Origin: an uncultured Selenomonadaceae bacterium
GTDB taxonomy: Bacteria > Bacillota > Negativicutes > Selenomonadales > Selenomonadaceae
DNA length: 64,000 bases
Direction of reading: 5' to 3'
Assembly (NCBI GenBank): GCA_902778455.1
Contig: CACYXR010000003.1
Coordinates: forward strand, 1 to 64,000
Made by a program: the position numbers and the translations under genes. Below, one piece after another: positions 1 to 12,629 of the stretch. The notes below the pieces were generated by a model. It worked only from the letters and a program-made list of their open reading frames with translations. It was not told the DNA's origin and ran no database searches. Within the stretch, counting starts at the first letter, position 1. Every line of letters starts with the position of its first letter.

Positions 1-98
1 GCTACGTCGAGAGGGATTTGACGACGGCAGTCGGAAAAAGATCCGGTAGCGAAATAGTCCAGTGGACTGTTTCGCGGAGGGACTTATTCAGTGGTTCC
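1..98. mobile_element. Right end of a MITE-like element (family A)
   Basis: Only the right part lies in the window. It matches the right end of the complete copy at 29971-30199: both carry GCTACGTCGA, then a shared CGGAAAAAGA stretch, and both end in a terminal repeat of the form GACTTRTTCAGYGKTTCC. The bases just outside the end (99-102) are TTAA, consistent with the 4-bp AT-rich duplications seen at the two complete copies. The element encodes nothing. It supplies the stop codon of the neighbouring Fic gene. Confidence 0.6.
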
Positions 99-1053
99 TT
101 AATGCGCCGCTGTCGTCCATCCTTCTCCAGCATTTCTCTTTCATGAACGCCGCAATCCTGCCGTTATCACGCCCCTCATAATACGCAACAAGCAAGCGTT
201 TGAACTCCGGCACGTCCTTTTCCGGAATCACAAGAAGCCCTGCGGCTTGTCCGATCAGGTAATGGTTGGCGAAGATTACCGCCACACGTTTATTTCCGTC
301 GTTGAAGACCTGCGTCTTCATACAATAAAGGCACAAGCGAATGGCAACCTCGACAGGTTCGCCGCCGTCTGCGGCAATTTGCGCAATGCGCTCTTTGACG
401 TCAAGCTCGATCGGTATCGGGGGGGCATAGGAAGTCCCGCCGATAGTGACCGGCACGCCGCGAATCCGGCCTCCTTCGTTATAGAACCCTTCATTCACGA
501 GCTTTGCGATATGGCAAAGGATATAATAATGCGTTTTCGTCGCGATTACGTCCCGATCCATCACGAATTCCCACGCGTGCTTCAGGTTCAGGATTTTCTG
601 CACGTCGTTGGCGGAAACGCCGCTGACACGCCCATTCTCGATAATATCCTCCGTCTGCGGAAAAGACGTCGCCACGCCCTCCAGCACCGCCTGGTCATAG
701 ATGTTGGCTTTCATATTCGCCCGCGCGAAATCAATATTCAGCAGTACGCGGTCAGACAATTCTTCCGTTGCGTAGCCGAGCTGCGCAAGACGTTTTTCTG
801 CGCGGCGAATTTCCTTTTTCAGCTCTCTGGCTTCTTTTGCATAGCGAAGGAGCGCCGCATGCAGATCGTCCGAGTACACGTCCACATAGGTACTCGTCAG
901 CTTGCCCGCCGCACGCTTTCGGATATACAGATATTTTCCGGCGCCGCGCATTTTGATTTCCGGCGTTCCGTCATAAGGGAGCAGCTTCAGCCGCGCCTGC
1001 AAATCCGCCCGTTGCTGCAAAAGCTCCTGTATCTCCATATGCTCACGATTCAT
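88..1053 (-). CDS. Fic/Doc-family protein with His-to-Gln change in the Fic motif
   Basis: About 321 residues. The N-terminal third is basic and helix-rich and is not part of the Fic fold. A Fic domain follows. Its core motif near residue 248 reads QVFNDGNKR, where canonical Fic enzymes have HPFxDGNGR and Doc has HxFxDANKR. The catalytic His is therefore Gln, and the NKR ending is Doc-like. AMPylation by the usual mechanism is doubtful; I recall related proteins with QxFxDGNKR, so this may be a subfamily trait. ATG at 1053 is chosen over 1059 because GGAGG sits 8 nt upstream of it. The last codons and the stop lie in the target duplication and end of a MITE-like element, so the original C-terminus may have been altered. 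It has its own promoter/operator at 1068-1118. Confidence 0.8.
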   Translation of the reverse strand: MNREHMEIQELLQQRADLQARLKLLPYDGTPEIKMRGAGKYLYIRKRAAGKLTSTYVDVYSDDLHAALLRYAKEARELKKEIRRAEKRLAQLGYATEELSDRVLLNIDFARANMKANIYDQAVLEGVATSFPQTEDIIENGRVSGVSANDVQKILNLKHAWEFVMDRDVIATKTHYYILCHIAKLVNEGFYNEGGRIRGVPVTIGGTSYAPPIPIELDVKERIAQIAADGGEPVEVAIRLCLYCMKTQVFNDGNKRVAVIFANHYLIGQAAGLLVIPEKDVPEFKRLLVAYYEGRDNGRIAAFMKEKCWRRMDDSGALRNH

Positions 1054-1067
1054 CTTCATTTCCTCCG

Positions 1068-1118
1068 ATTGGGGAATTTTTTTCGTTTAATTTTAGCATA
1101 TTGTTCCCCAATTTTCAA
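1068..1118 (-). promoter_or_regulatory. Promoter with inverted-repeat operator for the Fic gene
   Basis: On the minus strand TTGAAA (1113-1118) and TAAAAT (1090-1095) are 17 bp apart. A perfect inverted repeat, ATTGGGGAA (1068-1076) and TTCCCCAAT (1104-1112), has one arm between the -35 and -10 and the other between the -10 and the ribosome binding site. This is the layout of a repressor operator. The same module recurs at 12934-12984. The repressor is unknown. Confidence 0.7.
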
Positions 1119-1141
1119 AAACGGCACTTCTCAAAACGCCA

Positions 1142-1182
1142 AAAAATCCGCCCTCCCACGGAATCTTCCCGTGAAAGGGCGG
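1142..1182 (-). terminator. Rho-independent terminator of the toxin-antitoxin operon
   Basis: It directly follows the toxin stop codon. The stem is CCGCCCT/AGGGCGG, continuing as CACGG/CCGTG across a small internal loop, followed on the minus strand by six T. Nearly identical hairpins occur at 1802-1836 and 13007-13041. Confidence 0.85.
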
Positions 1183-1464
1183 CTATTCATCAAAAATATC
1201 CGAATGGGTTCCGGTATCGGTGAGCGTCAGCGTCAAAATATCGTCCTCGACAAGATAGACCAGCAACCAATCCGGTTGAATATGACATTCACGAAATCCT
1301 TCAAAATCTCCGTGCAATGCATGGTCATGATAATTCGCATCGAGTTTTTCACCATTCCGCAAAACATCGACAACCTCATCCAAAAGGTCCATATTCAGCC
1401 CGCGCTTCTTCGCACGCTTATACCCTTTTTTGTAAGCCGTAGTGAACTTGACGCGGTATTTCAT
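1183..1464 (-). CDS. YafQ-family type II toxin (mRNA interferase)
   Basis: This is a 93-residue RelE/ParE-fold toxin of the YafQ type. YafQ cleaves mRNA on the ribosome. The family's catalytic positions are all present: His48/His51 in HDHALHGD, His61 and Asp65 in ECHIQPD, and His87 and Phe91 in GTHSDIF. The length equals the usual YafQ length. The start codon overlaps the antitoxin stop as ATGA, so the two are translationally coupled. A strong terminator follows at once. The toxin looks intact. The antitoxin and promoter upstream make this a complete, self-regulated module. Confidence 0.9.
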   Translation of the reverse strand: MKYRVKFTTAYKKGYKRAKKRGLNMDLLDEVVDVLRNGEKLDANYHDHALHGDFEGFRECHIQPDWLLVYLVEDDILTLTLTDTGTHSDIFDE

Positions 1465-1736
1465 GCCTCCAACGCCTTCTTCAAGTCGTCCATATTATCA
1501 TAACCTGGAATTTTGGGGTCGCGGGACACACGCCGGGCTTCTGCCATCGCATCCAACGTCTGCTTGCTGTAATGCGGCATTTCTACTGCGAAAGGGAGTC
1601 CTCCACGCAAGACACATTGATGAAGGAACATATTGATTGCCCCGGACATATCCAGCCCGAGATGTGAAAAAAGTTCGGCAGCCTGCCCTTTGATATCGCG
1701 ATCGATCCGTATTTGCGTCGGAACCGTAGCGGCCAT
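1461..1736 (-). CDS. RelB/DinJ-family antitoxin
   Basis: About 91 residues. The N-terminal part (TQIRIDRDIKGQA...LGLDMSGAINMFL) is the ribbon-helix-helix DNA-binding fold of RelB/DinJ antitoxins. The C-terminal tail is the part that normally wraps and blocks the toxin. ATG at 1736 is preferred to 1742 because AGGAGG lies 8 nt upstream of it but only 2 nt upstream of 1742. It overlaps the YafQ toxin by 4 bp. DinJ-type antitoxins usually repress their own promoter. A 13-bp palindrome over the -35 box here is a likely operator. Confidence 0.9.
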   Translation of the reverse strand: MAATVPTQIRIDRDIKGQAAELFSHLGLDMSGAINMFLHQCVLRGGLPFAVEMPHYSKQTLDAMAEARRVSRDPKIPGYDNMDDLKKALEA

Positions 1737-1758
1737 CGCCATCCCCTCCTTTGCGGTA

Positions 1759-1858: not shown

Positions 1859-1891
1859 ATTTCAATCCATGCCCTCTGTGTGAAGGGCGAA
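1859..1891 (-). repeat. Decayed CRISPR repeat, leader-distal
   Basis: It matches the array repeat at 27 of 33 positions and keeps the ATTTCAATCC end. It lies about 650 bp beyond the last recognised array unit, on the leader-distal side where repeats usually decay. From here to 2143 (over 250 bp) I see no gene, only this relic, a palindromic repeat and a second repeat fragment. Confidence 0.7.
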
Positions 1892-2033: not shown

Positions 2034-2056
2034 TTACGGCACGTTCAAAAAATCAT

Positions 2057-2075
2057 CCTCCGCATGGAGGGCGAC
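2057..2075 (-). repeat. CRISPR repeat fragment
   Basis: Nineteen bases identical to the stem-forming end of the array repeat (CCTCCGCATGGAGGGCGAC). The rest of the repeat is unrecognisable. With the relic at 1859 it shows that the array once reached further. Confidence 0.65.
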
Positions 2076-2143
2076 ACGAGCAGCATATTTCGGATTAAAT
2101 CCAAATCACGCTTCATAGTGCTTCATCCTCTCTCAAAAGCGCT

Positions 2144-2341
2144 TTACTTAGTCTTCCCATATTTCTTAAATATAGCATTCCGTTTTTTTCGAATATACGT
2201 CATAAGTTCACGAAAGTCTTGCGTCTCAGAAGGGTTGTCAAGCACACCCGCTGGCGTTGCATTCTTATATTTTTTTAGAATTTTAAGGCCGCGACGTACT
2301 TCTTTTTTTTGCAAGGATTTTATTTCACTTTCGTAACTCAT
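2144..2341 (-). CDS. Small hypothetical protein beyond the array end
   Basis: 65 residues, strongly basic and helical, with a Lys/Arg-rich C-terminus. I do not recognise it. ATG overlaps the stop of the upstream ORF as ATGA, and GAGGAG lies 8 nt upstream, so it looks translated and coupled. It lies between the CRISPR repeat fragment at 2057 and the first recognised repeat at 2540, and reads in the direction of array transcription. Base composition is AT-richer than the core genes, which suggests foreign origin. A phage-derived or DNA-binding protein is possible but unproven. Confidence 0.5.
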   Translation of the reverse strand: MSYESEIKSLQKKEVRRGLKILKKYKNATPAGVLDNPSETQDFRELMTYIRKKRNAIFKKYGKTK

Positions 2342-2562
2342 AACGGTAGCTCCTCAAACGTAATACCTTTCAGCATTTTTGCTAGGGCGCGCATTGTACG
2401 TAGTTGCGGGTAATCCGCCGAAATATCATTTTCATCATAACCAATTCCACCCATAGTATACGCCTTTTGATAATATCTGTAAATTTCGCTTGGCGTTATT
2501 TTTTCACCACGATAGCTTGTTCTGTATCTACCAAGCCCAATTTCAATCCACGCCCTCCGCAT
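2338..2562 (-). CDS. Small ORF starting inside the first CRISPR repeat, probably 5'-truncated
   Basis: 74 residues if the ATG inside the CRISPR repeat (2560-2562) is used. The first eight residues (MRRAWIEI) are encoded by the repeat, so the natural protein probably began elsewhere and this is a 3' remnant joined to the array. The remaining 66 residues form a plausible soluble protein (EKITPSEIYRYYQKAY...). No good ribosome binding site precedes the ATG. It overlaps the next small gene by 4 bp. I do not recognise the family. An internal Met (MGGIGYDEND) could start a 38-residue product. Confidence 0.35.
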   Translation of the reverse strand: MRRAWIEIGLGRYRTSYRGEKITPSEIYRYYQKAYTMGGIGYDENDISADYPQLRTMRALAKMLKGITFEELPL

Positions 2563-4686
2563 GGAGGGCGACAAGGCCGCATCCGAAAATCCGTTCCCGA
2601 TCTGATTCTATTTCAATCCACGCCCTCCGCATGGAGGGCGACTGCCGGATTCCACAGTCAGATACGACGGACGCTTATTTCAATCCACGCCCTCCGCATG
2701 GAGGGCGACACCACACACACGCGCCGTTGCACGTTACAACGCATTTCAATCCACGCCCTCCACACGGAGGGAGGGCGACAGTTCATCCCAAAAGCTATAC
2801 AGTGAAGTACATCATATTTCAATCCACGCCCTCCATACGGAGGACGACATTCCATACACGGACACCGGCATTGCCATCATCGAATTTCAATCCACGCCCA
2901 CCACACGGAGGGCGACCGCATGTGGCTTTGTACTTACAATATCGTTCCTTTTTTTGTTGCTTCAGCATATTCCTTTTTCATCTTTTCGTATTCTTCCTTG
3001 ACTTCCTTGGGGGCGTCTTCTTGAAGCCCAACACGGAAACCATTTTTATATATCGAGTACTTCATGATTTCATCCCAATACTTTGGTGTAGGTATAGTGG
3101 CGGTCATGATAGTACCTCCTTTTTTACGATCTCCCATATTGCACGTGAAAGAGGATCTGTGGTATATTTCAATCCGTCGCCCTCCGCATGGAGGGCGACT
3201 GCGAACTGGACGCAGGTAGACGCTCACATCGATTTCAATCCACGCCCTCCGCATGGAGGGCGACGGAGGGAATACAATATGAGACAGGTTACTTTAGACA
3301 TTTCAATCCACGCCCTCCGCATGGAGGGCGACGCCGTGACTAGAAATCCTATAGCATCATTGTGCCCATTTCAATCCACGCCCTCCGCATGGAGGGCGAC
3401 GCGATGCCCTGTGCGCTGTCCTTCGGGCAGGGAATATTTCAATCCACGCCCTCCGCATGGAGGGCGACAAGTAGACTTTTCGGGAAACGTCAGTATGAGC
3501 GGATTTCAATCCACGCCCTCCGCATGGAGGGCGACTTCTGATAACGAATTACGGCGCGTCCGCGAAGTTATATTTCAATCCACGCCCTCCGCATGGAGGG
3601 CGACGGCAGCGTCAGACAGTATCCGTTCCCGGAGTAGACATTTCAATCCACGCCCTCCGCATGGAGGGCGACACATATCCGCGCTGATTTGCGTCCTCGC
3701 CTTCGCATTTCAATCCACGCCCTCCGCATGGAGGGCGACCTTTCGGAATTCGTCGATATAATAAATAAGTTTACATTTCAATCCACGCCCTCCGCATGGA
3801 GGGCGACCCGCTGTCGAGGTTGATGTCATGCCCCGGATTGATATTTCAATCCACGCCCTCCGCATGGAGGGCGACTGTTCATATTGCCGCCCCCCTAAAG
3901 CAAAAGCGAGATTTCAATCCACGCCCTCCGCATGGAGGGCGACCTACACAGGCGGCAGCGAAGCCGCAAAAGAGCATATTTCAATCCACGCCCTCCGCAT
4001 GGAGGGCGACCCTGCGCCCGCATAACCATTCTCGTACATACAGCAATTTCAATCCACGCCCTCCGCATGGAGGGCGACCCGCCGCGTCTGCCGCCAAAAG
4101 GCTCGGATTGTCTTATTTCAATCCACGCCCTCCGCATGGAGGGCGACGAAAGCGACGAGGAATGGCTGGCGCGAATCATCGAGATTTCAATCCACGCCCT
4201 CCGCATGGAGGGCGACGAAGCTACGGAACGAATTGAAGATAGCGCGGCAAATTTCAATCCACGCCCTCCGCATGGAGGGCGACTTCGTCCCAAGAATAGC
4301 CAAAAACGCCGTGATCTATTTCAATCCACGCCCTCCGCATGGAGGGCGACGAGCCGCTTTCGATTTCAGATTTTCAAACGTGCAAATTTCAATCCACGCC
4401 CTCCGCATGGAGGGCGACCAAGCTATATGAGCCACGAAGCGGATTTGTGGATATTTCAATCCACGCCCTCCGCATGGAGGGCGACGTCAACCGCCGCCAG
4501 ATACAGCGGGTCAGTCTCGATTTCAATCCACGCCCTCCGCATGGAGGGCGACTTCAAGAGCGCATGACGAAATGCAAGACCTGATATTTCAATCCACGCC
4601 CTCCGCATGGAGGGCGACATTGAAAGGAATGGCTGGGTATGCTGAGCGTTGAAATTTCAATCCACGCCCTCCGCATGGAGGGCGAC
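2540..4686 (-). CRISPR. Type I-C CRISPR array, 29 repeats
   Basis: The repeat on the + strand is ATTTCAATCC, ACGCCCTCC, GCAT, GGAGGGC, GAC (33 bp). Transcribed from the minus strand it starts GTCGCCCTCC and ends GGATTGAAAT, the typical I-C form with a 7-bp stem and tetraloop. Repeats start at 2540, 2610, 2677, 2743, 2816, 2884, 3166, 3232 and on to 4654. Spacers are 32-37 nt. Twenty-four repeats are perfect. Variants cluster at the leader-distal end: 2743 (37 bp with an added GAGG), 2816, 2884 and 3166 (34 bp, altered 5' handle). Between repeats 2884 and 3166 there is a 249-bp segment with a small gene in place of a spacer. Leader and cas2 lie at the 4.7-kb side. Confidence 0.97.
2934..3107 (-). 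CDS. 57-residue ORF embedded in the CRISPR array
   Basis: It occupies most of the 249-bp segment (2917-3165) between two CRISPR repeats. ATG at 3107 is preceded by AAAAAAGGAGGT with 7 nt spacing, one of the best ribosome binding sites in the window, so translation is likely. The product is hydrophilic, has a Tyr-rich N-terminal part (PKYWDEIMKYSIYKNG) and ends in a charged helix (KEVKEEYEKMKKEY). I recognise no family. It reads in the direction of the array, so it would be transcribed within the pre-crRNA. Sequence is AT-richer than the surroundings. The upstream 58 nt could contain an old spacer. Confidence 0.6.
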   Translation of the reverse strand: MTATIPTPKYWDEIMKYSIYKNGFRVGLQEDAPKEVKEEYEKMKKEYAEATKKGTIL

Positions 4687-4807
4687 AGGGTACTATACAA
4701 TCGTTGTCATTCAAAGCTGCGGCGGGCTTTTTTCGCGAACCTCCAAAATCATTCCCTCCTTCCCGCATAAACGCACGCAAATCGTCTATGTTTGCTTCCG
4801 TTTCGCA
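4687..4807 (-). promoter_or_regulatory. CRISPR leader
   Basis: This non-coding stretch lies between cas2 and the first perfect repeat, where a type I-C leader is expected. In array direction it ends with ATGACAACGATTGTATAGTACCC next to the repeat. Its 12-mer AATCGTTGTCAT (4699-4710, + strand) also occurs just upstream of cas3 at 12378-12389. Confidence 0.75.
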
Positions 4808-5098
4808 CTACATGATCAACGTGCCTTCGGCGTCATATCCCGGCTTTGCACCGACATGCTCAACCTTCGACGCATATTGATTGCCCAAATTGTAAAAGCG
4901 AAGGCTGTCTTTCTCCGGATCAATCAATTTTTGCAGTTGATGACGGACTTCCCGGTACTGTGCCTCATCCAAGACGCACTCAAACACCGAATTCTGCACC
5001 CTTTGTCCATGCCTTACGCAGCATTTCGCCACCGAACGCAGTCTTCGCTTTCCTTCGGCCGTTTCCGTATTCACATCATAGGTAATCAAAATCAGCAT
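4808..5098 (-). CDS. cas2: Cas2 adaptation protein
   Basis: 96 residues, the usual Cas2 length. It starts MLILITYDVNTET, with the conserved Asp at position 8 at the end of the first strand of the ferredoxin-like fold. The NSVFEC strand is also typical of I-C Cas2. Cas2 dimers bridge two Cas1 dimers and hold prespacer DNA for integration at the leader-proximal repeat. It is the last gene of the cas operon, 9 bp after cas1. The leader follows at once. Nothing suggests damage. Confidence 0.96.
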   Translation of the reverse strand: MLILITYDVNTETAEGKRRLRSVAKCCVRHGQRVQNSVFECVLDEAQYREVRHQLQKLIDPEKDSLRFYNLGNQYASKVEHVGAKPGYDAEGTLIM

Positions 5099-5107
5099 CG
5101 CTTTCTC

Positions 5108-6139
5108 CTACTTCCACAGAAACGCCGGATATTCCTCCAAGTCGCCGCGCAGATGCCGTGCCAGGAGGAGCGCCTGCACATACGGAACTAACCCCCAATA
5201 AATCTTCTCGCCCAAATACGGATGAGACATCGTATCACGTTTTCGTTCCTGCCATGCTGCCACGACTGCTTTCCTTCCGTCCTCGCTCAACCAGACCACG
5301 CCGTTCTCGCGCTCGTCAAAATCCTTCGGCTTCAGGACGCGGTTATTGATCAAAGTCAGCACGAATCGGTCGGCATACACGGCACGAAGCTCCTCCATCA
5401 GGTCCAGCGCCAAAGACTCCCGCCCCGGCCTGTCGCGATGCAAAAAGCCAACGTACGCATCCAGGCCGACGCTTTCCAAAGCCGACGCACAGTCATGTGC
5501 CAGCATTGTGTAAACGAAGGAGATTGCCGCGTTCACCCGGCCAATCGGCGGACGCTTCCACCGTCCATAAAACGGGAAATCTTCCTTGTTTTGCAGGATC
5601 AGTTCCCCGAACACGGAAAAATACAGCCGCGCCGCATTTCCTTCCACGCCGCGCAAGTCCTCAAGCTGCTCCGCCTGCCTCGCCTCCCGCATGGAGGAAT
5701 GAAGCTCCCGGCTCACTTCCTCCAACGCTTCCACATCCACGCTCATCGGATGGTCGCGTTTCGCGCGTTCCAAGACTGCACGGCTGTTGTATATCTTACC
5801 CACGATAAAGTTCCGCGCAATCCGGCAGCTTTCCGCCTCGTCGTCGGAGACACGGTACTGTTTTTTCCGAAGCAATACGTTGCCTTGGCTCGCGCCGCAG
5901 ACGCGCGCCAGAAATCTTCCGTTTTGCCGCAGAAAGCAAAGCCCGATCTGCCGCTTCGCGCATTCGCCCATCAGCGCGGGGCTCGCTCCGCGAAAGCCGA
6001 AGTACAGGATATTCTCCAACCCCAACAGCGGGACGCGCCCTAATACCTCTTCCTGTCTGTAAATCACGACATTCTCATTTTCCAGCGCTAGGTAGGTATC
6101 GTCTGACAGGACGAACAAAGTATTCAGCAAACGCCGCAT
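5108..6139 (-). CDS. cas1: Cas1 integrase, type I-C
   Basis: 343 residues. The N-terminal beta-rich domain (residues 1-90) is followed by the helical catalytic domain. Metal-binding residues are visible: Glu166 in RGVEGNAARLYF, His234 in GFLHRDRPGR and Asp246 in LALDLMEEL. It catalyses spacer integration with Cas2. Length and motif order match the I-C family (Cas1c). It lies 6 bp after cas4, the usual I-C order cas4-cas1-cas2. The array has many perfect leader-proximal repeats, consistent with recent adaptation activity. Confidence 0.97.
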   Translation of the reverse strand: MRRLLNTLFVLSDDTYLALENENVVIYRQEEVLGRVPLLGLENILYFGFRGASPALMGECAKRQIGLCFLRQNGRFLARVCGASQGNVLLRKKQYRVSDDEAESCRIARNFIVGKIYNSRAVLERAKRDHPMSVDVEALEEVSRELHSSMREARQAEQLEDLRGVEGNAARLYFSVFGELILQNKEDFPFYGRWKRPPIGRVNAAISFVYTMLAHDCASALESVGLDAYVGFLHRDRPGRESLALDLMEELRAVYADRFVLTLINNRVLKPKDFDERENGVVWLSEDGRKAVVAAWQERKRDTMSHPYLGEKIYWGLVPYVQALLLARHLRGDLEEYPAFLWK

Positions 6140-6145
6140 ATCGAA

Positions 6146-6799
6146 TCACTCCAACGCCCGACGGTAATATTCGTCAACGGAAAGCAGCTTCGGCAGCCGA
6201 GGCAGGCAAAGCTCCTTCATCGAGCACGACCGGCACTGCTTTTTCGACTTTGCTTTCGGCGTGTGGCCGCGCCGCGCGTAATCGTGCATCTCGCGGAAAA
6301 CGTCCTGCACCTCTTGCCGGAGCACCTCCGTAACCTCCACTTCTTCCCGCCGTCGAATCTCATCATAGAAAAGATACGCATTCGGCACTTCGCCGCCCAG
6401 CATTTCCTCCAGGCACATTGCCTGTGCGGCAAGCTGCAAGCGGTCACAGTCCTCCGTTTTAGGCTTGCCGCGTTTGTATTCCACGGGAACCGCCTGCCAA
6501 GCCCCCTCCTGCCCGAAAAGCCTCACGCCGTCCGCCTGCCGATGAAACTCCACGACGTCGCATTGCCCCACCGCACCCAAGGTACGGGAGAAAACGCGCA
6601 TCCCCCGCGTCGTCAGAAGGTCTTTCCGTTTTTCCGTGAAGCCTTCGTCATGGCAACGCTCATGCACGATCTTCCCTTCCACGGTACGCAGATTTTCCTT
6701 CCATAGCTGTTCCATGTGAATCAGCGCCCACTGACGGCGGCAGAAGGAAAAGTGCTGGATACCGGAAATCAGCAGGAATTCGTCTTCAGTGTAGGTCAT
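6146..6799 (-). CDS. cas4: Cas4 nuclease, type I-C
   Basis: 217 residues. It carries the RecB-type nuclease residues His46, Asp81, Glu107 and Lys109 (VPVEYKRGK), and four Cys for an iron-sulfur cluster: Cys20 (FSFCRRQW), then Cys189, Cys192 and Cys198 (CRSCSMKELC). Cas4 trims and orients prespacers so that spacers with the right PAM are inserted. It overlaps the cas7 stop by 4 bp and precedes cas1 by 6 bp. The complete cluster ligands argue for an active enzyme. Confidence 0.95.
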   Translation of the reverse strand: MTYTEDEFLLISGIQHFSFCRRQWALIHMEQLWKENLRTVEGKIVHERCHDEGFTEKRKDLLTTRGMRVFSRTLGAVGQCDVVEFHRQADGVRLFGQEGAWQAVPVEYKRGKPKTEDCDRLQLAAQAMCLEEMLGGEVPNAYLFYDEIRRREEVEVTEVLRQEVQDVFREMHDYARRGHTPKAKSKKQCRSCSMKELCLPRLPKLLSVDEYYRRALE

Positions 6800-7686
6800 A
6801 GCATACGCGTACAGGTCACACCCGCGGGCAGATTATCCGTGTCCACTTCGATGCGGTAATCCGAATATGCACGGGCGGGTTTGCTTGCATCAACGCGCTC
6901 CGCCTTGACGCGTTCAAAGAGTTTGTAGGCGGGCGCATTGCCAAGCTCACTGTCATGCTTGAAAACGATAAGCTCGCGTACAGCCATATTGCCTCGCGCC
7001 GCCGAGTGGTCATTCTCAAACATATTGATAATGGCCTGCCACAGCAGTGCAAGATCGTCTTCGCTAAAACCCGTGGTCTTGCGCGCTAAATTCGCGGAAA
7101 CATAGCCTTCTGCCTTGTAAAGCGCATACGGCACAACATATTTGCGCCCCATCTCGGTCTTTTTGTTTTCCGCGTCTTTTTCCGTCGTGATAGCGACACG
7201 AGTAATCCCGATTTCCTGCGGAACAATCGGATCAACGCTGCGGGAGAAACCGAGCTGCACTGGACCTCGCACCTGACCGCAGTTCAGCGCCGCTTTCACA
7301 AAGGTCGTCATGACCGCACCAAAGGTGCGAATATCATAAAAGTTTTGGCACATGAAATCCCGAATTTTGACATCGAGATTTTCGTCCTTTTTCTTCGCTG
7401 CCTTGACGTCTTTTTCATCGACGCCCAAATATTGGTAGGCTTCTTTATCGCTGCGCTCCAACGGCACCCGTTCTTTGATATAGATGCGGAAGCCGGGCTC
7501 CCCTTCTTTTGCGGTTTCAACATAGTTCCTGATCTTACGCTTCAAGCAAACGTCCGTGACAATGCCGTAGCCCGTTTCCTGATCGACGCGCGGCATGTTA
7601 TCCGCGTCGGGATCGCCGTTCGGATTGCCGTTCTCCACATCGAAAAGCACTACAAAGTCGTACCGATTCTTGATTGCCTCTGCCAT
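6796..7686 (-). CDS. cas7: Cas7c (Csd2) backbone subunit of Cascade
   Basis: 296 residues from ATG at 7686, preceded by AAGGAGG at good spacing. A longer in-frame extension upstream overlaps cas8c and is rejected. The start AEAIKNRYDFVVLFDVENGNPNGDPD is typical of Csd2-type Cas7, which polymerises along the crRNA spacer to form the I-C effector backbone. It begins one base after the cas8c stop and overlaps cas4 by 4 bp. Length matches the family. No defects seen. Confidence 0.95.
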   Translation of the reverse strand: MAEAIKNRYDFVVLFDVENGNPNGDPDADNMPRVDQETGYGIVTDVCLKRKIRNYVETAKEGEPGFRIYIKERVPLERSDKEAYQYLGVDEKDVKAAKKKDENLDVKIRDFMCQNFYDIRTFGAVMTTFVKAALNCGQVRGPVQLGFSRSVDPIVPQEIGITRVAITTEKDAENKKTEMGRKYVVPYALYKAEGYVSANLARKTTGFSEDDLALLWQAIINMFENDHSAARGNMAVRELIVFKHDSELGNAPAYKLFERVKAERVDASKPARAYSDYRIEVDTDNLPAGVTCTRML

Positions 7687-7687
7687 T

Positions 7688-8080
7688 TTACTTATCCTCC
7701 TTTTTCTCATACCGCTTCTGTGTCTGATGGTAATATCCAAGAATGAACATGCCCTGTTCGTCCAGTGACAACGTCTTCGGCAGCAGTGTTTCGCCGTCCA
7801 ACTTTCCCATAAGCTCCGTCAGCTTTTTCTCATAATAGATTTCCTGCCCCTTCTCCAGCTTCCGCAAGTGATGGTTGGACAAAATCTGGAGCTTGGAAAA
7901 CACCGCTGTGGGCGTCGCACAGGCCGCATTGAAATACCGATCCTTGATAGTCGAATTCAGCCCGGGATTCGCTGTCTCCTGAATCTGCTCCCATACGGAG
8001 AAGATTCTCCCCAAGACATACGCCGTGTCTTCGCAATTCTCATTGAGTGCCACTGTAATCTGCCTCCCTTTGTTCTTCAT
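7688..8080 (-). CDS. cas11: Putative Cas11c from an internal start in cas8c
   Basis: Type I-C systems make their small subunit Cas11c by internal translation of the cas8c 3' end (established for the family). Here an in-frame ATG at 8080 (MKNKGRQITVALNENC...) is preceded by AAGG with 8 nt spacing and would give a 130-residue helical protein, close to the known Cas11c size. It shares the stop of cas8c. The start is inferred from spacing and length only. Ribosome profiling or mass spectrometry of the N-terminus would decide. Confidence 0.55.
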   Translation of the reverse strand: MKNKGRQITVALNENCEDTAYVLGRIFSVWEQIQETANPGLNSTIKDRYFNAACATPTAVFSKLQILSNHHLRKLEKGQEIYYEKKLTELMGKLDGETLLPKTLSLDEQGMFILGYYHQTQKRYEKKEDK

Positions 8081-9457
8081 TAGATATGCCTTGATAATGG
8101 CCGCCCGCGTTTCAGTGAGTTTATAATGCGGCGGGGTGCCGTCCGCGTCGTCCTGCTCTGCCTTGATTCGGCGCATCACGTTTTGGTAAAGCGAATTCGG
8201 ATAATGCCCGCCTGTCAAGATAGAACGAAATACAGTTCCCGCCATCAGCGGGGATGCCACCTTATCCTTGGACTTCGGTAACACCGTAGCCATCAACAGT
8301 TTCCACAACGGAATCGGCGCCCATTCCTTGCCGCCCGGACGAACAATTTCCATGCGTTCATGATGTTGCTGGATGCACGACAAGATTTCTCCGAAGGAAT
8401 TACGATAGAAAAAACGCACGGAAATGCGTGCTGCATTCGGCGAAAGACCCAAGATATAAAAATTGTTGTCATAGGGAATTTCCTGTCCGTCGTACACGAT
8501 AGGTTTTCCCTCTTTTACCGCTTGCAGAATCGCGTTCAAGTCCTGCTGCGTCATTTCATTTTCGTCATCGAAACCGAAGTTGCTAAATATATCTTGACAC
8601 GCCTCATTTTGTTGCTCCGCCCAATATACGACAGTCATGTCCCCGATATATTTCCTGTGCCGCTCATTTTCTTCGCTTAAAAGATAGTTTAGGGCTTCCC
8701 CATAGGCGAAGGCCGCTTGTTCCGAAACATGAGCGTTCAACCCCTGCGCTTTGTCTTTCCCGTATGACTCGAACGATTCTACATTGAAGGATACAAGCAT
8801 GGCGCCGCTTGATTGGGCTCCTCTTACTCCATGAAACGATTTATGCAGCCTTGCGATAGGTGCGCGTTCACCCGTTACAAGGCATCGTCCCACCCCATCG
8901 TTTGCTGCTTGCGTACAGGATTTATCCCATAGCTTCACAACCTCCTCATCGTCTTGGGCATAGCCGTCATTGACCAAAAAGACGAAATTGCTTGCAGAGA
9001 TAATATCATCCCAATACTCTCTAACAACCGCATTGGATCGAGCCTTTTCCGGTTCCCAATGCTCAAAGAATAAGCGCACTGCCTTGCCCGCCAAAGACGA
9101 GCATTCAGCCAGTTCCTTTAGGTGCCGTTCCTTTGCTCTTTCAAAATATGCTTTGTTGACACCATCGTCCGATTTTCCATCAATCCCCAGGAGGAATTTT
9201 GCGTTATCACATAAATACTGCGCTTTAGGCGCTTTTCCCGAGCGCGTCCCAAATTCCGGCACGTTCATTTCCGCGGGCATCAGCACATCTTTTTTCCCAC
9301 GCTTCACTGACCGCATCAATGGCACAAAGCCGACCAAGTTGCCGTTTATATCCAGCCTCAATGCTGCTGACACCTTTGCGGGCATCCATCCTTTCCTCGA
9401 CACCTTGCCCCGCCGTTTCAAATCTTCATAATGGCGATACAGCGCTTCCAAAATCAT
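7688..9457 (-). CDS. cas8c: Cas8c (Csd1) large subunit of Cascade
   Basis: 589 residues, normal for Csd1. The start MILEALYRHYEDLKRRGKV and the later ISFNVESFESYGKDKAQGLNAHVSEQAAFAYGEALNYLL region are typical of the family. Cas8c recognises the PAM and helps recruit Cas3. ATG overlaps the cas5c stop by 4 bp. The 3' part probably also encodes Cas11c. No zinc-finger Cys cluster is obvious. The frame is open throughout. Confidence 0.95.
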   Translation of the reverse strand: MILEALYRHYEDLKRRGKVSRKGWMPAKVSAALRLDINGNLVGFVPLMRSVKRGKKDVLMPAEMNVPEFGTRSGKAPKAQYLCDNAKFLLGIDGKSDDGVNKAYFERAKERHLKELAECSSLAGKAVRLFFEHWEPEKARSNAVVREYWDDIISASNFVFLVNDGYAQDDEEVVKLWDKSCTQAANDGVGRCLVTGERAPIARLHKSFHGVRGAQSSGAMLVSFNVESFESYGKDKAQGLNAHVSEQAAFAYGEALNYLLSEENERHRKYIGDMTVVYWAEQQNEACQDIFSNFGFDDENEMTQQDLNAILQAVKEGKPIVYDGQEIPYDNNFYILGLSPNAARISVRFFYRNSFGEILSCIQQHHERMEIVRPGGKEWAPIPLWKLLMATVLPKSKDKVASPLMAGTVFRSILTGGHYPNSLYQNVMRRIKAEQDDADGTPPHYKLTETRAAIIKAYLMKNKGRQITVALNENCEDTAYVLGRIFSVWEQIQETANPGLNSTIKDRYFNAACATPTAVFSKLQILSNHHLRKLEKGQEIYYEKKLTELMGKLDGETLLPKTLSLDEQGMFILGYYHQTQKRYEKKEDK

Positions 9458-10113
9458 CGGTACACCTCCACGCCCTCCAAATCCATAACGCCGTTTTTCA
9501 GCACCGCGCGGAAAAAGGTCGGCTCGATATGCTCATTGTCGGAATAGTCCATATCATAGAGCATCAAGCCAAGGTCGCGCGTTTCGTCCTGATGAGCGCA
9601 AACAAAAGACGCTTCGTCTCCCAACGTGAATTTCGCGGGAAACTCACGGCACCCCAAATACGGCTGGTGATAGCATTGCCCTTTGGACGCCCTACGTCGA
9701 AACATCTCGGAAAATTTGCCCGTATTGTCGGAAGCATTCGCCTTGTCCGTCAGAACAAAATGCGCCTCAATAAGGTAACGCACATCCTTCAGCACCATGG
9801 AAGCGCGTTGCTGAATATCGTCGGCTGTCGCAATGCAGGCATCTCCGATAGTACCATTCATCAATTTCCGTGCTTGTTCGGCAGAAATTTTCGACTTCAC
9901 TTCATTGCGCCGAACATTTGCAAATCGAATGGGTTTTCCGACGGAAATTCGATCGACAATCCACTTTATGCCCGGATGCCACAAAATCGCTTCCAAGATA
10001 CCGCGAGCCGCCGAGGGCGTCATACAGTCGTAACTGACACGTTCCGCTTTTAACTCCGGCCTTGTAAACAGGGCATATTCGCCTTGAACATCCAGGCACA
10101 CACCATAGCTCAT
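9454..10113 (-). CDS. cas5: Cas5c crRNA-processing endonuclease
   Basis: 219 residues from ATG at 10113, which has AGGAG 8 nt upstream. Two upstream in-frame ATGs are worse placed. Type I-C lacks Cas6, and Cas5c cuts the repeat hairpin and keeps the 5' handle. The segment KAERVSYDCMTPSAARGILEAILWHP is the conserved N-terminal part of Cas5d/Cas5c. It lies 56 bp after cas3 and overlaps cas8c. Because the array contains a gene between two repeats, this enzyme would also cut that mRNA out of the precursor. Confidence 0.94.
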   Translation of the reverse strand: MSYGVCLDVQGEYALFTRPELKAERVSYDCMTPSAARGILEAILWHPGIKWIVDRISVGKPIRFANVRRNEVKSKISAEQARKLMNGTIGDACIATADDIQQRASMVLKDVRYLIEAHFVLTDKANASDNTGKFSEMFRRRASKGQCYHQPYLGCREFPAKFTLGDEASFVCAHQDETRDLGLMLYDMDYSDNEHIEPTFFRAVLKNGVMDLEGVEVYR

Positions 10114-10169
10114 AATCATCGCTCCTTTCATTAGTTTTTCACAGAGTTGTTTCGCCTTTTTCTTTGCGT

Positions 10170-12359
10170 TTAATAAATGATTGCCTCACCTTCTTCAATA
10201 TTATCCATTAGACCGACTAAAGAATCATATAACGACATATCAGACAGAACATAGAACGTGCCCGTTTCTCCCAACACCTCTATTTTCCCATTACGAAGCA
10301 TGGTTTCTAAAGGTGCATACTCCTTTCCATAACGCACATTAACGCAATACTTTCCCGCTTGGCGAAGAAGCGAGCGGGAAATATATCCTCTCCGCAAAGC
10401 GTCAGCAATTTCTGCTGCTTTTTCTTCTTTCGGAATCAGTACAGGACGCGTGGAATCCTCAATCAGCAAGAACCGTTTTGCAATTTCAGCAAACGGAAAA
10501 TTTTCCTCCTCGACACAGTCCAAAATCCCATGAGCGTCCAACCCGCTCGCACCCCCGCTCTCCTTGAAGTCATGCAATAGGCTGAAATACCGCCGTATCG
10601 CATCAGGCGACCCAAGGTCGCCCGCAAACATATCATCTTGATAAACCATTTCAGCTATACTGCGGTTCTGGGCGATGGATGTGTTTTTTACCGCTTTTTC
10701 AAATTCAAACACATAAACCGTGCTTTTCTCTTGCGCTCGCCTTCCTTCCCGATTGCAACGCCCCGCCGCCTGGACAATGCTGTCCAATCCCGCAAGCTGG
10801 CGAAATACGCAGGGGAAGTCCACATCGACGCCCGCCTCAATCAGGCTGGTCGCTACAACGCGGCAAGCCTCGCCGTTTTTCAGCGCATGTCGTATCGCGT
10901 CAAGCTGCCTCTTTCGATGTTCAGGATAAAGATTTGTCGAAAGATGCCAATTCCCCACTCCCGACAGCTTTTCAAAAAGCTCCCGCGCCTCCCGTTTCGT
11001 ATTGACGATACAAAGTACCTGCCGTTTTTTCATAAGACGCGTCGCCAATTCCGTCTGTGAAATTTTACCCGGCAGTATCGTGATATGCACACGGCGGAAA
11101 AAATTGTAGTTCCCCGATACGTCGGAGCAGATTTCCCGTATCTCGCTCTTGAATATTTTCAGTTTATCTAGCGAAGGCTGTGTTGCCGTACAAAGAAGAG
11201 CCGTGCATCTATATCTCTCGGTCAACTCCTTGACAGCTTTTATGCACGGACGCAAAAACTCCACGGGGATCATCTGCGCTTCATCGAATATGATGACGCT
11301 ACCCACGATATTATGCAGCTTGCGGCAGCGGGACGTGCGGTTTGCGAAAAGAGACTCGAAGAACTGTACGTTCGTCGTTACGATGATGGGCGCGTCCCAG
11401 TTTTCCGTCGCAAGGCGCTGACGGTTCATTGTCTCGTCCTTGTCGTCATACTCCGCCTGCATGTGATGCTCGACGACATTTTCTTCTCCCAGAATGTCCC
11501 GGAAGATTGCCGCCGTTTGCTCGATAATGCTGGTGTAGGGGATCACATAAATGATTCGCCTCTTTCCCATCTTTACCGCGTGATGAAGCGCGAAAGCAAG
11601 GGAGGCAATCGTTTTGCCGCCGCCCGTTGGCACGGTAAGGCTTTGCAACGGCTCGCCACATTCGTCGCCTGCCGCTATGCACTCCCGCAAGATTCCTGTC
11701 CGCCGTTTATTGATCTTGGTCGTGGGGTGCATGAAATTTTGTTCGACATGAGCGTCCAATCTTTCTTTGAGCGTTTCCAAAGAATCGAACGCGCTGCGTT
11801 CCGTTTCGCCCCGCATGAATTTCTCCGTGTCGAGGAAATCCGCGTCCACCAAACAGGAAAACAACATCCGCGTATAAAACATGAACGAGAATTTGGAAGT
11901 CTGCGCCGCCTTTTGCAAAGACGACGGCGCTGCAAACGTCGGCTCACTCCATTCCTCCCGATACGCGGAATAATCGCAAAGTTTTTTCTTGCATCTTCCC
12001 ATCCAAGTCCCACTGTCAGGCGCATCGACCTTCGTGCCCCCGTCCGGCAGACCGCCGTGATGTCCGGCTATGCAAAACGCGGCGGCAATCAATTCTTTTT
12101 TTCTCTTCGCCATGAGTTCCTGCATACCCGCACTGGAATGATCGACCTTTCGCCCGCCGCCTGCACGAATATAATCTTGGAACTCTTTGGAATATTTGCC
12201 GACGTCATGATATAGCCCGACCAGTTTTCCCATCTCGCCCTCGCCGAAGGAATCCGCAAATTCTCCCGCCAGCTTTCCAACACCGCTCAAATGCTCGACG
12301 AGCGGCTGCACTCGCCCGTCCTCGGTCCGATGCCCCCAAAATTCAATTTCATTGTTCAT
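10170..12359 (-). CDS. cas3: Cas3 HD nuclease-helicase
   Basis: 729 residues from ATG at 12359 (MNNEIEFWGH), with GGTGAGG 8 nt upstream. A longer in-frame reading to 12485 crosses a terminator hairpin and is rejected. The HD nuclease domain has His23, His51-Asp52 (YHDVGKYSKEF), His74 and His100-His101 (AGHHGG). The helicase has Walker A GGGKT at 246-250, DEAQ at 359-362 and motif VI QAAGRCNREGR. Cas3 degrades target DNA after recruitment by Cascade. It is the first gene of the cas operon. Domain order and size are those of a full I-C Cas3. Confidence 0.96.
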   Translation of the reverse strand: MNNEIEFWGHRTEDGRVQPLVEHLSGVGKLAGEFADSFGEGEMGKLVGLYHDVGKYSKEFQDYIRAGGGRKVDHSSAGMQELMAKRKKELIAAAFCIAGHHGGLPDGGTKVDAPDSGTWMGRCKKKLCDYSAYREEWSEPTFAAPSSLQKAAQTSKFSFMFYTRMLFSCLVDADFLDTEKFMRGETERSAFDSLETLKERLDAHVEQNFMHPTTKINKRRTGILRECIAAGDECGEPLQSLTVPTGGGKTIASLAFALHHAVKMGKRRIIYVIPYTSIIEQTAAIFRDILGEENVVEHHMQAEYDDKDETMNRQRLATENWDAPIIVTTNVQFFESLFANRTSRCRKLHNIVGSVIIFDEAQMIPVEFLRPCIKAVKELTERYRCTALLCTATQPSLDKLKIFKSEIREICSDVSGNYNFFRRVHITILPGKISQTELATRLMKKRQVLCIVNTKREARELFEKLSGVGNWHLSTNLYPEHRKRQLDAIRHALKNGEACRVVATSLIEAGVDVDFPCVFRQLAGLDSIVQAAGRCNREGRRAQEKSTVYVFEFEKAVKNTSIAQNRSIAEMVYQDDMFAGDLGSPDAIRRYFSLLHDFKESGGASGLDAHGILDCVEEENFPFAEIAKRFLLIEDSTRPVLIPKEEKAAEIADALRRGYISRSLLRQAGKYCVNVRYGKEYAPLETMLRNGKIEVLGETGTFYVLSDMSLYDSLVGLMDNIEEGEAIIY

Positions 12360-12377
12360 CTTCTTTGCCTCACCCAT

Positions 12378-12389
12378 AATCGTTGTCAT
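12378..12389 (-). promoter_or_regulatory. 12-mer shared by the cas3 upstream region and the CRISPR leader
   Basis: AATCGTTGTCAT (+ strand) lies 19-30 nt upstream of the cas3 ATG and is repeated exactly at 4699-4710 in the leader, in the same orientation relative to transcription. It may be a common regulatory or protein-binding site. No clear -10/-35 pair is visible here. Confidence 0.35.
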
Positions 12390-12450
12390 AATATTCTTAT
12401 TCGACAAATTTACTTGTTTTCCTTTATGTTTTCCTATTTTCGATAGATGC

Positions 12451-12482
12451 AAAAAGCCCGCGAAGCAAAGCTTCACGGGCTT
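12451..12482 (-). terminator. Rho-independent terminator
   Basis: AAGCCCGcGAAGC pairs with the facing CTTCacGGGCTT arm, and five T follow on the minus strand. It ends transcripts coming from the small gene at 12630-12824 and separates them from the cas promoter. The preceding 12483-12629 carries no gene. It has a 9-bp inverted repeat, AGAGGGAAT (12499-12507) and ATTCCCTCT (12566-12574). Confidence 0.75.
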
Positions 12483-12629
12483 CAATACAACAAAGCATAG
12501 AGGGAATCTTATATCGATGGCGACCGCCGTACGGCATTCACAGCCTCCGCCCGGTCAACCGTTCAATTCCCTCTTTCTCCCAAAACAGATTCTCCCAATA
12601 AAAATACACATCTTTCCGGCTTCTTGCCG

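Follow-up and report, generated by a model that had tools for sequence, protein, structure and literature searches.

A 57-codon gene that replaces a spacer in a type I-C CRISPR array of an uncultured Selenomonadaceae bacterium is, most likely, the copied antidote of a phage toxin-antidote pair. Together with a second gene-bearing unit in the same array, it is probably an orphan immunity gene kept between CRISPR repeats, analogous to the genes held in AID/rAID islands. This reading draws on homology, colinearity with prophage modules and the presence of intact small genes with ribosome-binding sites, and also on the truncation or displacement of the toxins, the recurrence of such units in three species, and the finding that the metallopeptidase toxin was undetected in the genus.

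Organisation of the CRISPR locus

The window is the whole stretch of DNA analysed, 64,000 nucleotides at positions 1 to 64,000 of contig CACYXR010000003.1 (assembly GCA_902778455.1, here genome G000). The array lies behind a cas operon of type I-C that is complete and was identified using Pfam and NCBIfam, and the presumed leader was placed by its position between cas2 and the first repeat. The features of the locus are as follows.

4808-12485, minus strand: cas3-cas5c-cas8c-cas7-cas4-cas1-cas2
4687-4807, minus strand: presumed leader region
2540-4686, minus strand: type I-C CRISPR array of 29 repeats, from 4686 down to 2540
3166-3199, minus strand: leader-side repeat flanking insert B
2917-3165, minus strand: insert B, a 249-bp unit replacing a spacer, 40% G+C
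2884-2916, minus strand: trailer-side repeat flanking insert B, degenerate
2076-2539, minus strand: insert A, 39% G+C
2043-2075, minus strand: partial terminal repeat
1859-1891, minus strand: oldest degenerate repeat

The ordinary spacers of the array (n = 27) are 32-37 nt long, with a mean of 34.7 nt. A sequence-only reading of the window had described a 249-bp segment in place of a spacer between the repeats at 2884 and 3166, and this was confirmed as the single interval of that length in the array. The lengths of both inserts, 249 nt for B and 464 nt for A, depart from the 32-37 nt set by the Cas1-Cas2 ruler. Insert A closes the array, lying between a perfect repeat at 2540-2572 and the partial repeat at 2043-2075. 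The G+C content of insert B is 40%, as compared with 57% for the window and 52% for the ordinary spacers.

The repeat at 3166 is altered just as that reading had given it, being 34 nt long with GACGG for GTGG and ...GGGCGACGGATTGAAAT for ...GGGCGTGGATTGAAAT; an influence of these changes on Cascade loading is conjecture. The repeat on the trailer side has a GTGT loop and one stem mismatch. Degenerate repeats are common at the old end of arrays. In this array, decay runs against the usual direction, with perfect sequences in the three outermost repeats (2540-2709) and degenerate ones in the four repeats on their inner side, which suggests that two arrays were fused or rearranged. The partial terminal repeat provides a stem that, together with T6, forms a terminator-like site (2070-2057) behind insert A, and the same partial repeat is carried by genome G137. 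No exact match to the window repeat was found in the phages of IMG/VR.

Several further elements were observed around this and related loci. Directly beyond the old end of the array, the window (88-1742) carries a Fic-domain gene and a RelB/YafQ-type toxin-antitoxin pair, and in G132 a HicAB-like pair occupies the same side of the array as the RelB/YafQ-type pair does in the window. An AT-rich element, CTCAAACTTCCCACATGCAAAATCACTCTGAAACTTGAT (1913-1955), occurs at five places in the genome and also at the array ends of G136 and G137. The G137 locus (L052, contig C108) has the trailer end and Fic gene as in the window, and a restriction-modification-like helicase gene at the array position, with only the partial terminal repeat left of the array. 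Elsewhere in G000 (L033, 7300-7960; contig C9:104924), a solo CRISPR repeat lies behind a cas7-like 3' fragment with a serine-recombinase-like gene adjoining, and is a relic of a second I-C locus.

Gene content of inserts B and A

Each insert was found to consist of the 3' end of a toxin gene followed by a complete small gene that overlaps it.

3104-3154, minus strand: 3' stub of a toxin gene, PLSRAIWEIVKKEVLS followed by a stop, insert B
2934-3107, minus strand: 57-codon gene for an immunity-type protein of a MuF-CT metallopeptidase toxin module, orphan, insert B
2338-2539, minus strand: 66-codon 3' fragment of a MuF-CT toxin tip, insert A
2144-2341, minus strand: 65-codon immunity-type gene, intact, with a GAGGAG Shine-Dalgarno site, insert A

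The 57-codon ORF of insert B is intact, runs in the array sense, and has a AAGGAGGT Shine-Dalgarno site 6 nt before its ATG. Dinucleotide shuffling of the 249 bp gave an ORF of at least 57 aa in 343 of 5000 shuffles (7%), hence the length of the ORF alone proves nothing. A chance ORF, left standing by length, was ruled out by homology and by the codon-position pattern. The protein is 62% identical (E 4e-20) to a copy in the congener G136, and over 51 codons the two genes have 13, 4 and 32 mismatches at codon positions 1, 2 and 3, respectively. This is a clear coding-type conservation that marks the 57-codon gene as real, although the pattern may have originated in phage life before insertion. 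The ORF and the strong ribosome binding site proposed in the sequence-only reading both stand. Searched with a profile of the family, the class yielded members in 11 of 380 genomes. The assignment of the gene to an immunity-type family is drawn from its homologues, its position behind toxin tips and its codon pattern. No match above the cut-off was obtained for the protein in Pfam or NCBIfam, just a weak match to phrog_20195, a PHROG of unknown function, and no close phage source of the gene was found in IMG/VR or INPHARED.

The first ~50 nt of insert B, a part on which the earlier reading was silent, encode the last residues of a toxin and overlap the start codon of the 57-codon gene, the TGA of the stub being shared as ATGA. 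Most members of the 57-aa family have the toxin C-terminal motif LSKEIWKRLKEEL, with its stop, directly upstream. As PLSRAIWEIVKKEVLS matches this motif, insert B comprises the 3' stub of a metallopeptidase-type MuF-CT toxin gene and the complete gene downstream of it. An initial assignment of the upstream end to another ORF (ending in ..VQYGRS and a stop) was dropped when the toxin frame was recognised. A leader duplication, or second leader within the array, was ruled out by the homology of the insert to phage DNA. No promoter candidate stands out in insert B.

Insert A, likewise beyond the earlier reading, is another such module, with a different toxin type. Over 63 residues, its 66-codon fragment is 41% identical to the C-terminal end of a MuF protein (PF04233) from a prophage in G004, and its 65-codon ORF is 28% identical to the 70-aa ORF located directly behind that MuF toxin; the two gene pairs are colinear. 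The 65-aa protein has no similarity to the product of the ORF behind the MuF protein of G129.

Relatives in phage MuF modules

In phages, a small ORF follows MuF toxin genes in 89.4% of cases, and these ORFs are taken as immunity genes (Jamet et al. 2017, PMC5576092). This position, directly downstream of a MuF toxin tip, is taken by relatives of the 57-aa gene at four loci (L055, L037, L038 and L016). In L055, from a Roseburia MAG, terminase and portal genes precede a MuF minor capsid protein (PF06152, E 4e-69), which is followed by the small ORF and then by capsid genes. At L037, the relative follows a full toxin, a 261-aa protein with an HEMGH motif and weak similarity to a zinc peptidase family in Pfam (E 0.04), and a MuF fragment lies further upstream. 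At L016 and L038, relatives belong to tandemly arranged MuF-CT cassettes whose tips are Ntox50 and DUF6883. The tandem toxin-immunity cassettes of L016 (G091, contig C100) are separated by a repeated linker of ~120 bp, present in six copies. 'Cargo' and 'phage gene', two descriptions offered in the sequence-only reading, are both apt.

The window holds toxin stubs only, and no complete MuF toxin gene was found there in cis. The window gene is thus an orphan derived from a MuF-CT toxin-immunity module, not a complete module. Orphan copies of the immunity-type gene, accompanied by a toxin stub alone, were also observed behind unrelated housekeeping genes in chromosomes (L005 and L017, G099), and the array is therefore not the unique home of the gene. 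A distant copy of the metallopeptidase toxin domain was detected in G063 (contig C12, 28416-29138); the surrounding open frame of ~3489 aa may encode a giant polymorphic toxin or a polyvalent protein.

Modules in the arrays of related species

In the array of G136 (L010), the interval bounded by repeats 5701 and 7030 contains a DUF6883 tip and a 71-aa ORF, together with a metallopeptidase stub and the 55-aa homologue of the window protein; this insert is colinear with the prophage locus L038 (56% identity). In G130 (L035), two modules lie between repeat variants, at 458-1529 and 1529-2327. One includes a 68-aa ORF and a tip whose relatives are MuF tips in two phages, namely Streptococcus phage MissF and one from IMG/VR that has an intact MuF gene, and the other consists of a DUF6883-like tip and a small ORF. 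The small genes are antisense to the array in both G136 and G130, and in the array sense in the window. The array of G132 is regular.

Modules were therefore present in three of four arrays of the genus, and gene-bearing units in none of the 15 arrays from other genera of the family among the matches listed (Fisher p 0.004, the species not being independent samples). The long gaps in the arrays of G031, G033 and G034 are masked N stretches and were excluded from the count. All six modules, from three arrays in three species, derive from the same ~1 kb phage region, which covers a MuF toxin tip and its downstream gene, and each of the six small genes is intact and preceded by a Shine-Dalgarno site. 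The identity of the small proteins to their phage partners is low (28-46%). Homologues thus exist, with the same family inside the array of another species, and the inserts of three species share one phage region, which together argue against the random strain-specific insertion that the sequence-only reading had named as the outcome counting against its proposal.

The toxins are stubs in the window and partly so in G136. Those of G130 have complete-looking tips, with neither a MuF part nor an evident start, hence loss of the toxin with retention of the immunity gene is limited to the window and G136. The metallopeptidase toxin was found in none of the 11 genomes of the genus. The search for MuF proteins in the genus covered PF04233, one of two MuF families (the other being PF06152); the three insert-bearing genomes (G000 included) gave no match, and PF04233 was found within the genus only in G129, in which no array was detected.

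Proposed expression and function of the small genes

The 249-bp unit would be a phage toxin-immunity module trimmed to the immunity gene and the last codons of the MuF-CT toxin. The genes of inserts B and A may be translated from transcripts that run through the array; such expression is possible in the window as both genes lie in the array sense and end in a terminator-like site, and a local promoter is possible for the insert A gene. Processing by Cas5c may or may not spare the message. In G136 and G130, where the genes are antisense, another promoter would be needed. The proteins would bind and neutralise a toxin that arrives with the head of a MuF-toxin phage or comes from rival lysogens, and cells keeping the genes would survive. 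Immunity activity, expression, and selection after insertion are thus predicted for the small genes, and retention of useful genes would explain the observed pattern, whereas random capture of phage DNA would not.

The sequence-only reading had envisaged that Cas5c cuts both flanking repeats and frees a short mRNA, the product of which acts on the CRISPR system. In the window, the gene runs in the array sense and has a strong ribosome-binding site, in agreement with this, but the antisense genes of the two congeners mean that mRNA release is not a shared mode of expression. As the family is tied to phage toxin modules and has no link to cas genes outside arrays, a role as a CRISPR regulator is not supported, and the proposal as a whole is very improbable.

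A rather unlikely alternative to retained immunity genes is that phage or chromosomal toxin-immunity loci contributed pieces that recombined, illegitimately or homologously, into the little-used old end of the array and are functionless passengers there. The inserts do lie at the trailer end among degenerate repeats, with transposon-like debris and partial repeats nearby, their orientation is not conserved, and orphan copies are found elsewhere in chromosomes. However, neutral entry would not readily account for all six modules coming from about 1 kb of phage genome, or for six of six small genes being intact while the neighbouring repeats are degenerate. Alternatively, the Cas4-Cas1-Cas2 integrase could have captured long phage DNA as giant spacers with duplication of the repeat, giving useless crRNAs and useful genes. 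Repeats are present on both sides of the inserts; moreover, the flanking repeats in G136 share a GCAC loop that occurs in no other repeat of that contig, and insert 1 of G130 has an identical repeat variant on each side, as repeat duplication leaves. Nevertheless, integrases measure lengths far short of 250-1300 bp, the flanking repeats in the window differ from each other, and the repeat-terminator junction common to both G130 modules is better explained by recombination between modules. Random uptake would not strike one phage region every time unless selected, and capture as giant spacers is accordingly judged distinctly unlikely. A wider proposal, that the array of the genus is a two-layer archive in which spacers against phage DNA and immunity genes are both acquired by the adaptation machinery or repeat recombination and expressed from the array, is put forward tentatively and is itself unlikely.

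Comparison with known systems

The inserts originate from the arrangement seen in the MuF polymorphic toxins of temperate phages (PMC5576092), where the head module carries, after the portal gene, a MuF-CT tip with a small ORF downstream of it. Unlike in those loci, here the MuF portion is missing along with the bulk of the toxin, and the small gene lies between CRISPR repeats in a genome in which that toxin was not found. The AID-1 and rAID clusters of Bacteroidales (PMC12247911) are likewise collections of orphan immunity genes without cognate toxins, with conserved elements between the genes, and here, too, the metallopeptidase toxin was found in none of the 11 genomes of the genus. The rAID clusters are characterised by a tyrosine recombinase, intergenic motifs and T6SS effector targets, whereas here CRISPR repeats lie between the genes and the toxins are of the phage MuF type. 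Neither an adjacent tyrosine recombinase nor the intergenic motif was found, the neighbours being repeats, cas genes, the RelB/YafQ-type pair and Fic. By analogy, the inserts would work like AID but are not rAID.

Orphan immunity gene arrays of Vibrio cholerae (PMC5361080) are also reported to keep an immunity gene after displacement of the T6SS effector, but belong to another toxin system and lie outside a CRISPR array. CreTA and other CRISPR-tied toxin-antitoxin elements (PMC8501985, PMC10097628) resemble the inserts in placing an antidote-type function in a CRISPR locus with degenerate flanking repeats. CreTA is an RNA pair that guards the cas genes through a crRNA-like antitoxin complementary to a toxin promoter, whereas the unit described here encodes a conserved protein putatively directed at phage toxins. 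No paper joining MuF, immunity proteins and CRISPR arrays was found in the open-licence full-text literature, and the searched portion of a review of CRISPR versatility (PMC8730458) makes no mention of such immunity genes in arrays.

Implications

Array-finding programs that discard long 'spacers' may hide genes of this type, and the inserts raise the question of whether uptake between repeats extends to long coding DNA. Small pairs suitable for testing are provided by the 57-aa protein with the metallopeptidase MuF tip and the 65-aa protein with the HNHP-motif tip. Acquired memory is known both in the form of orphan immunity genes and in that of CRISPR arrays, and the first was found here repeatedly inside the second, in three species. 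This suggests that a bacterium attacked by toxin-carrying phages may hold the antidote to the toxin beside the guides against the phage DNA; a DNA-based immune memory thus seems also to carry protein antidotes against phage toxins.
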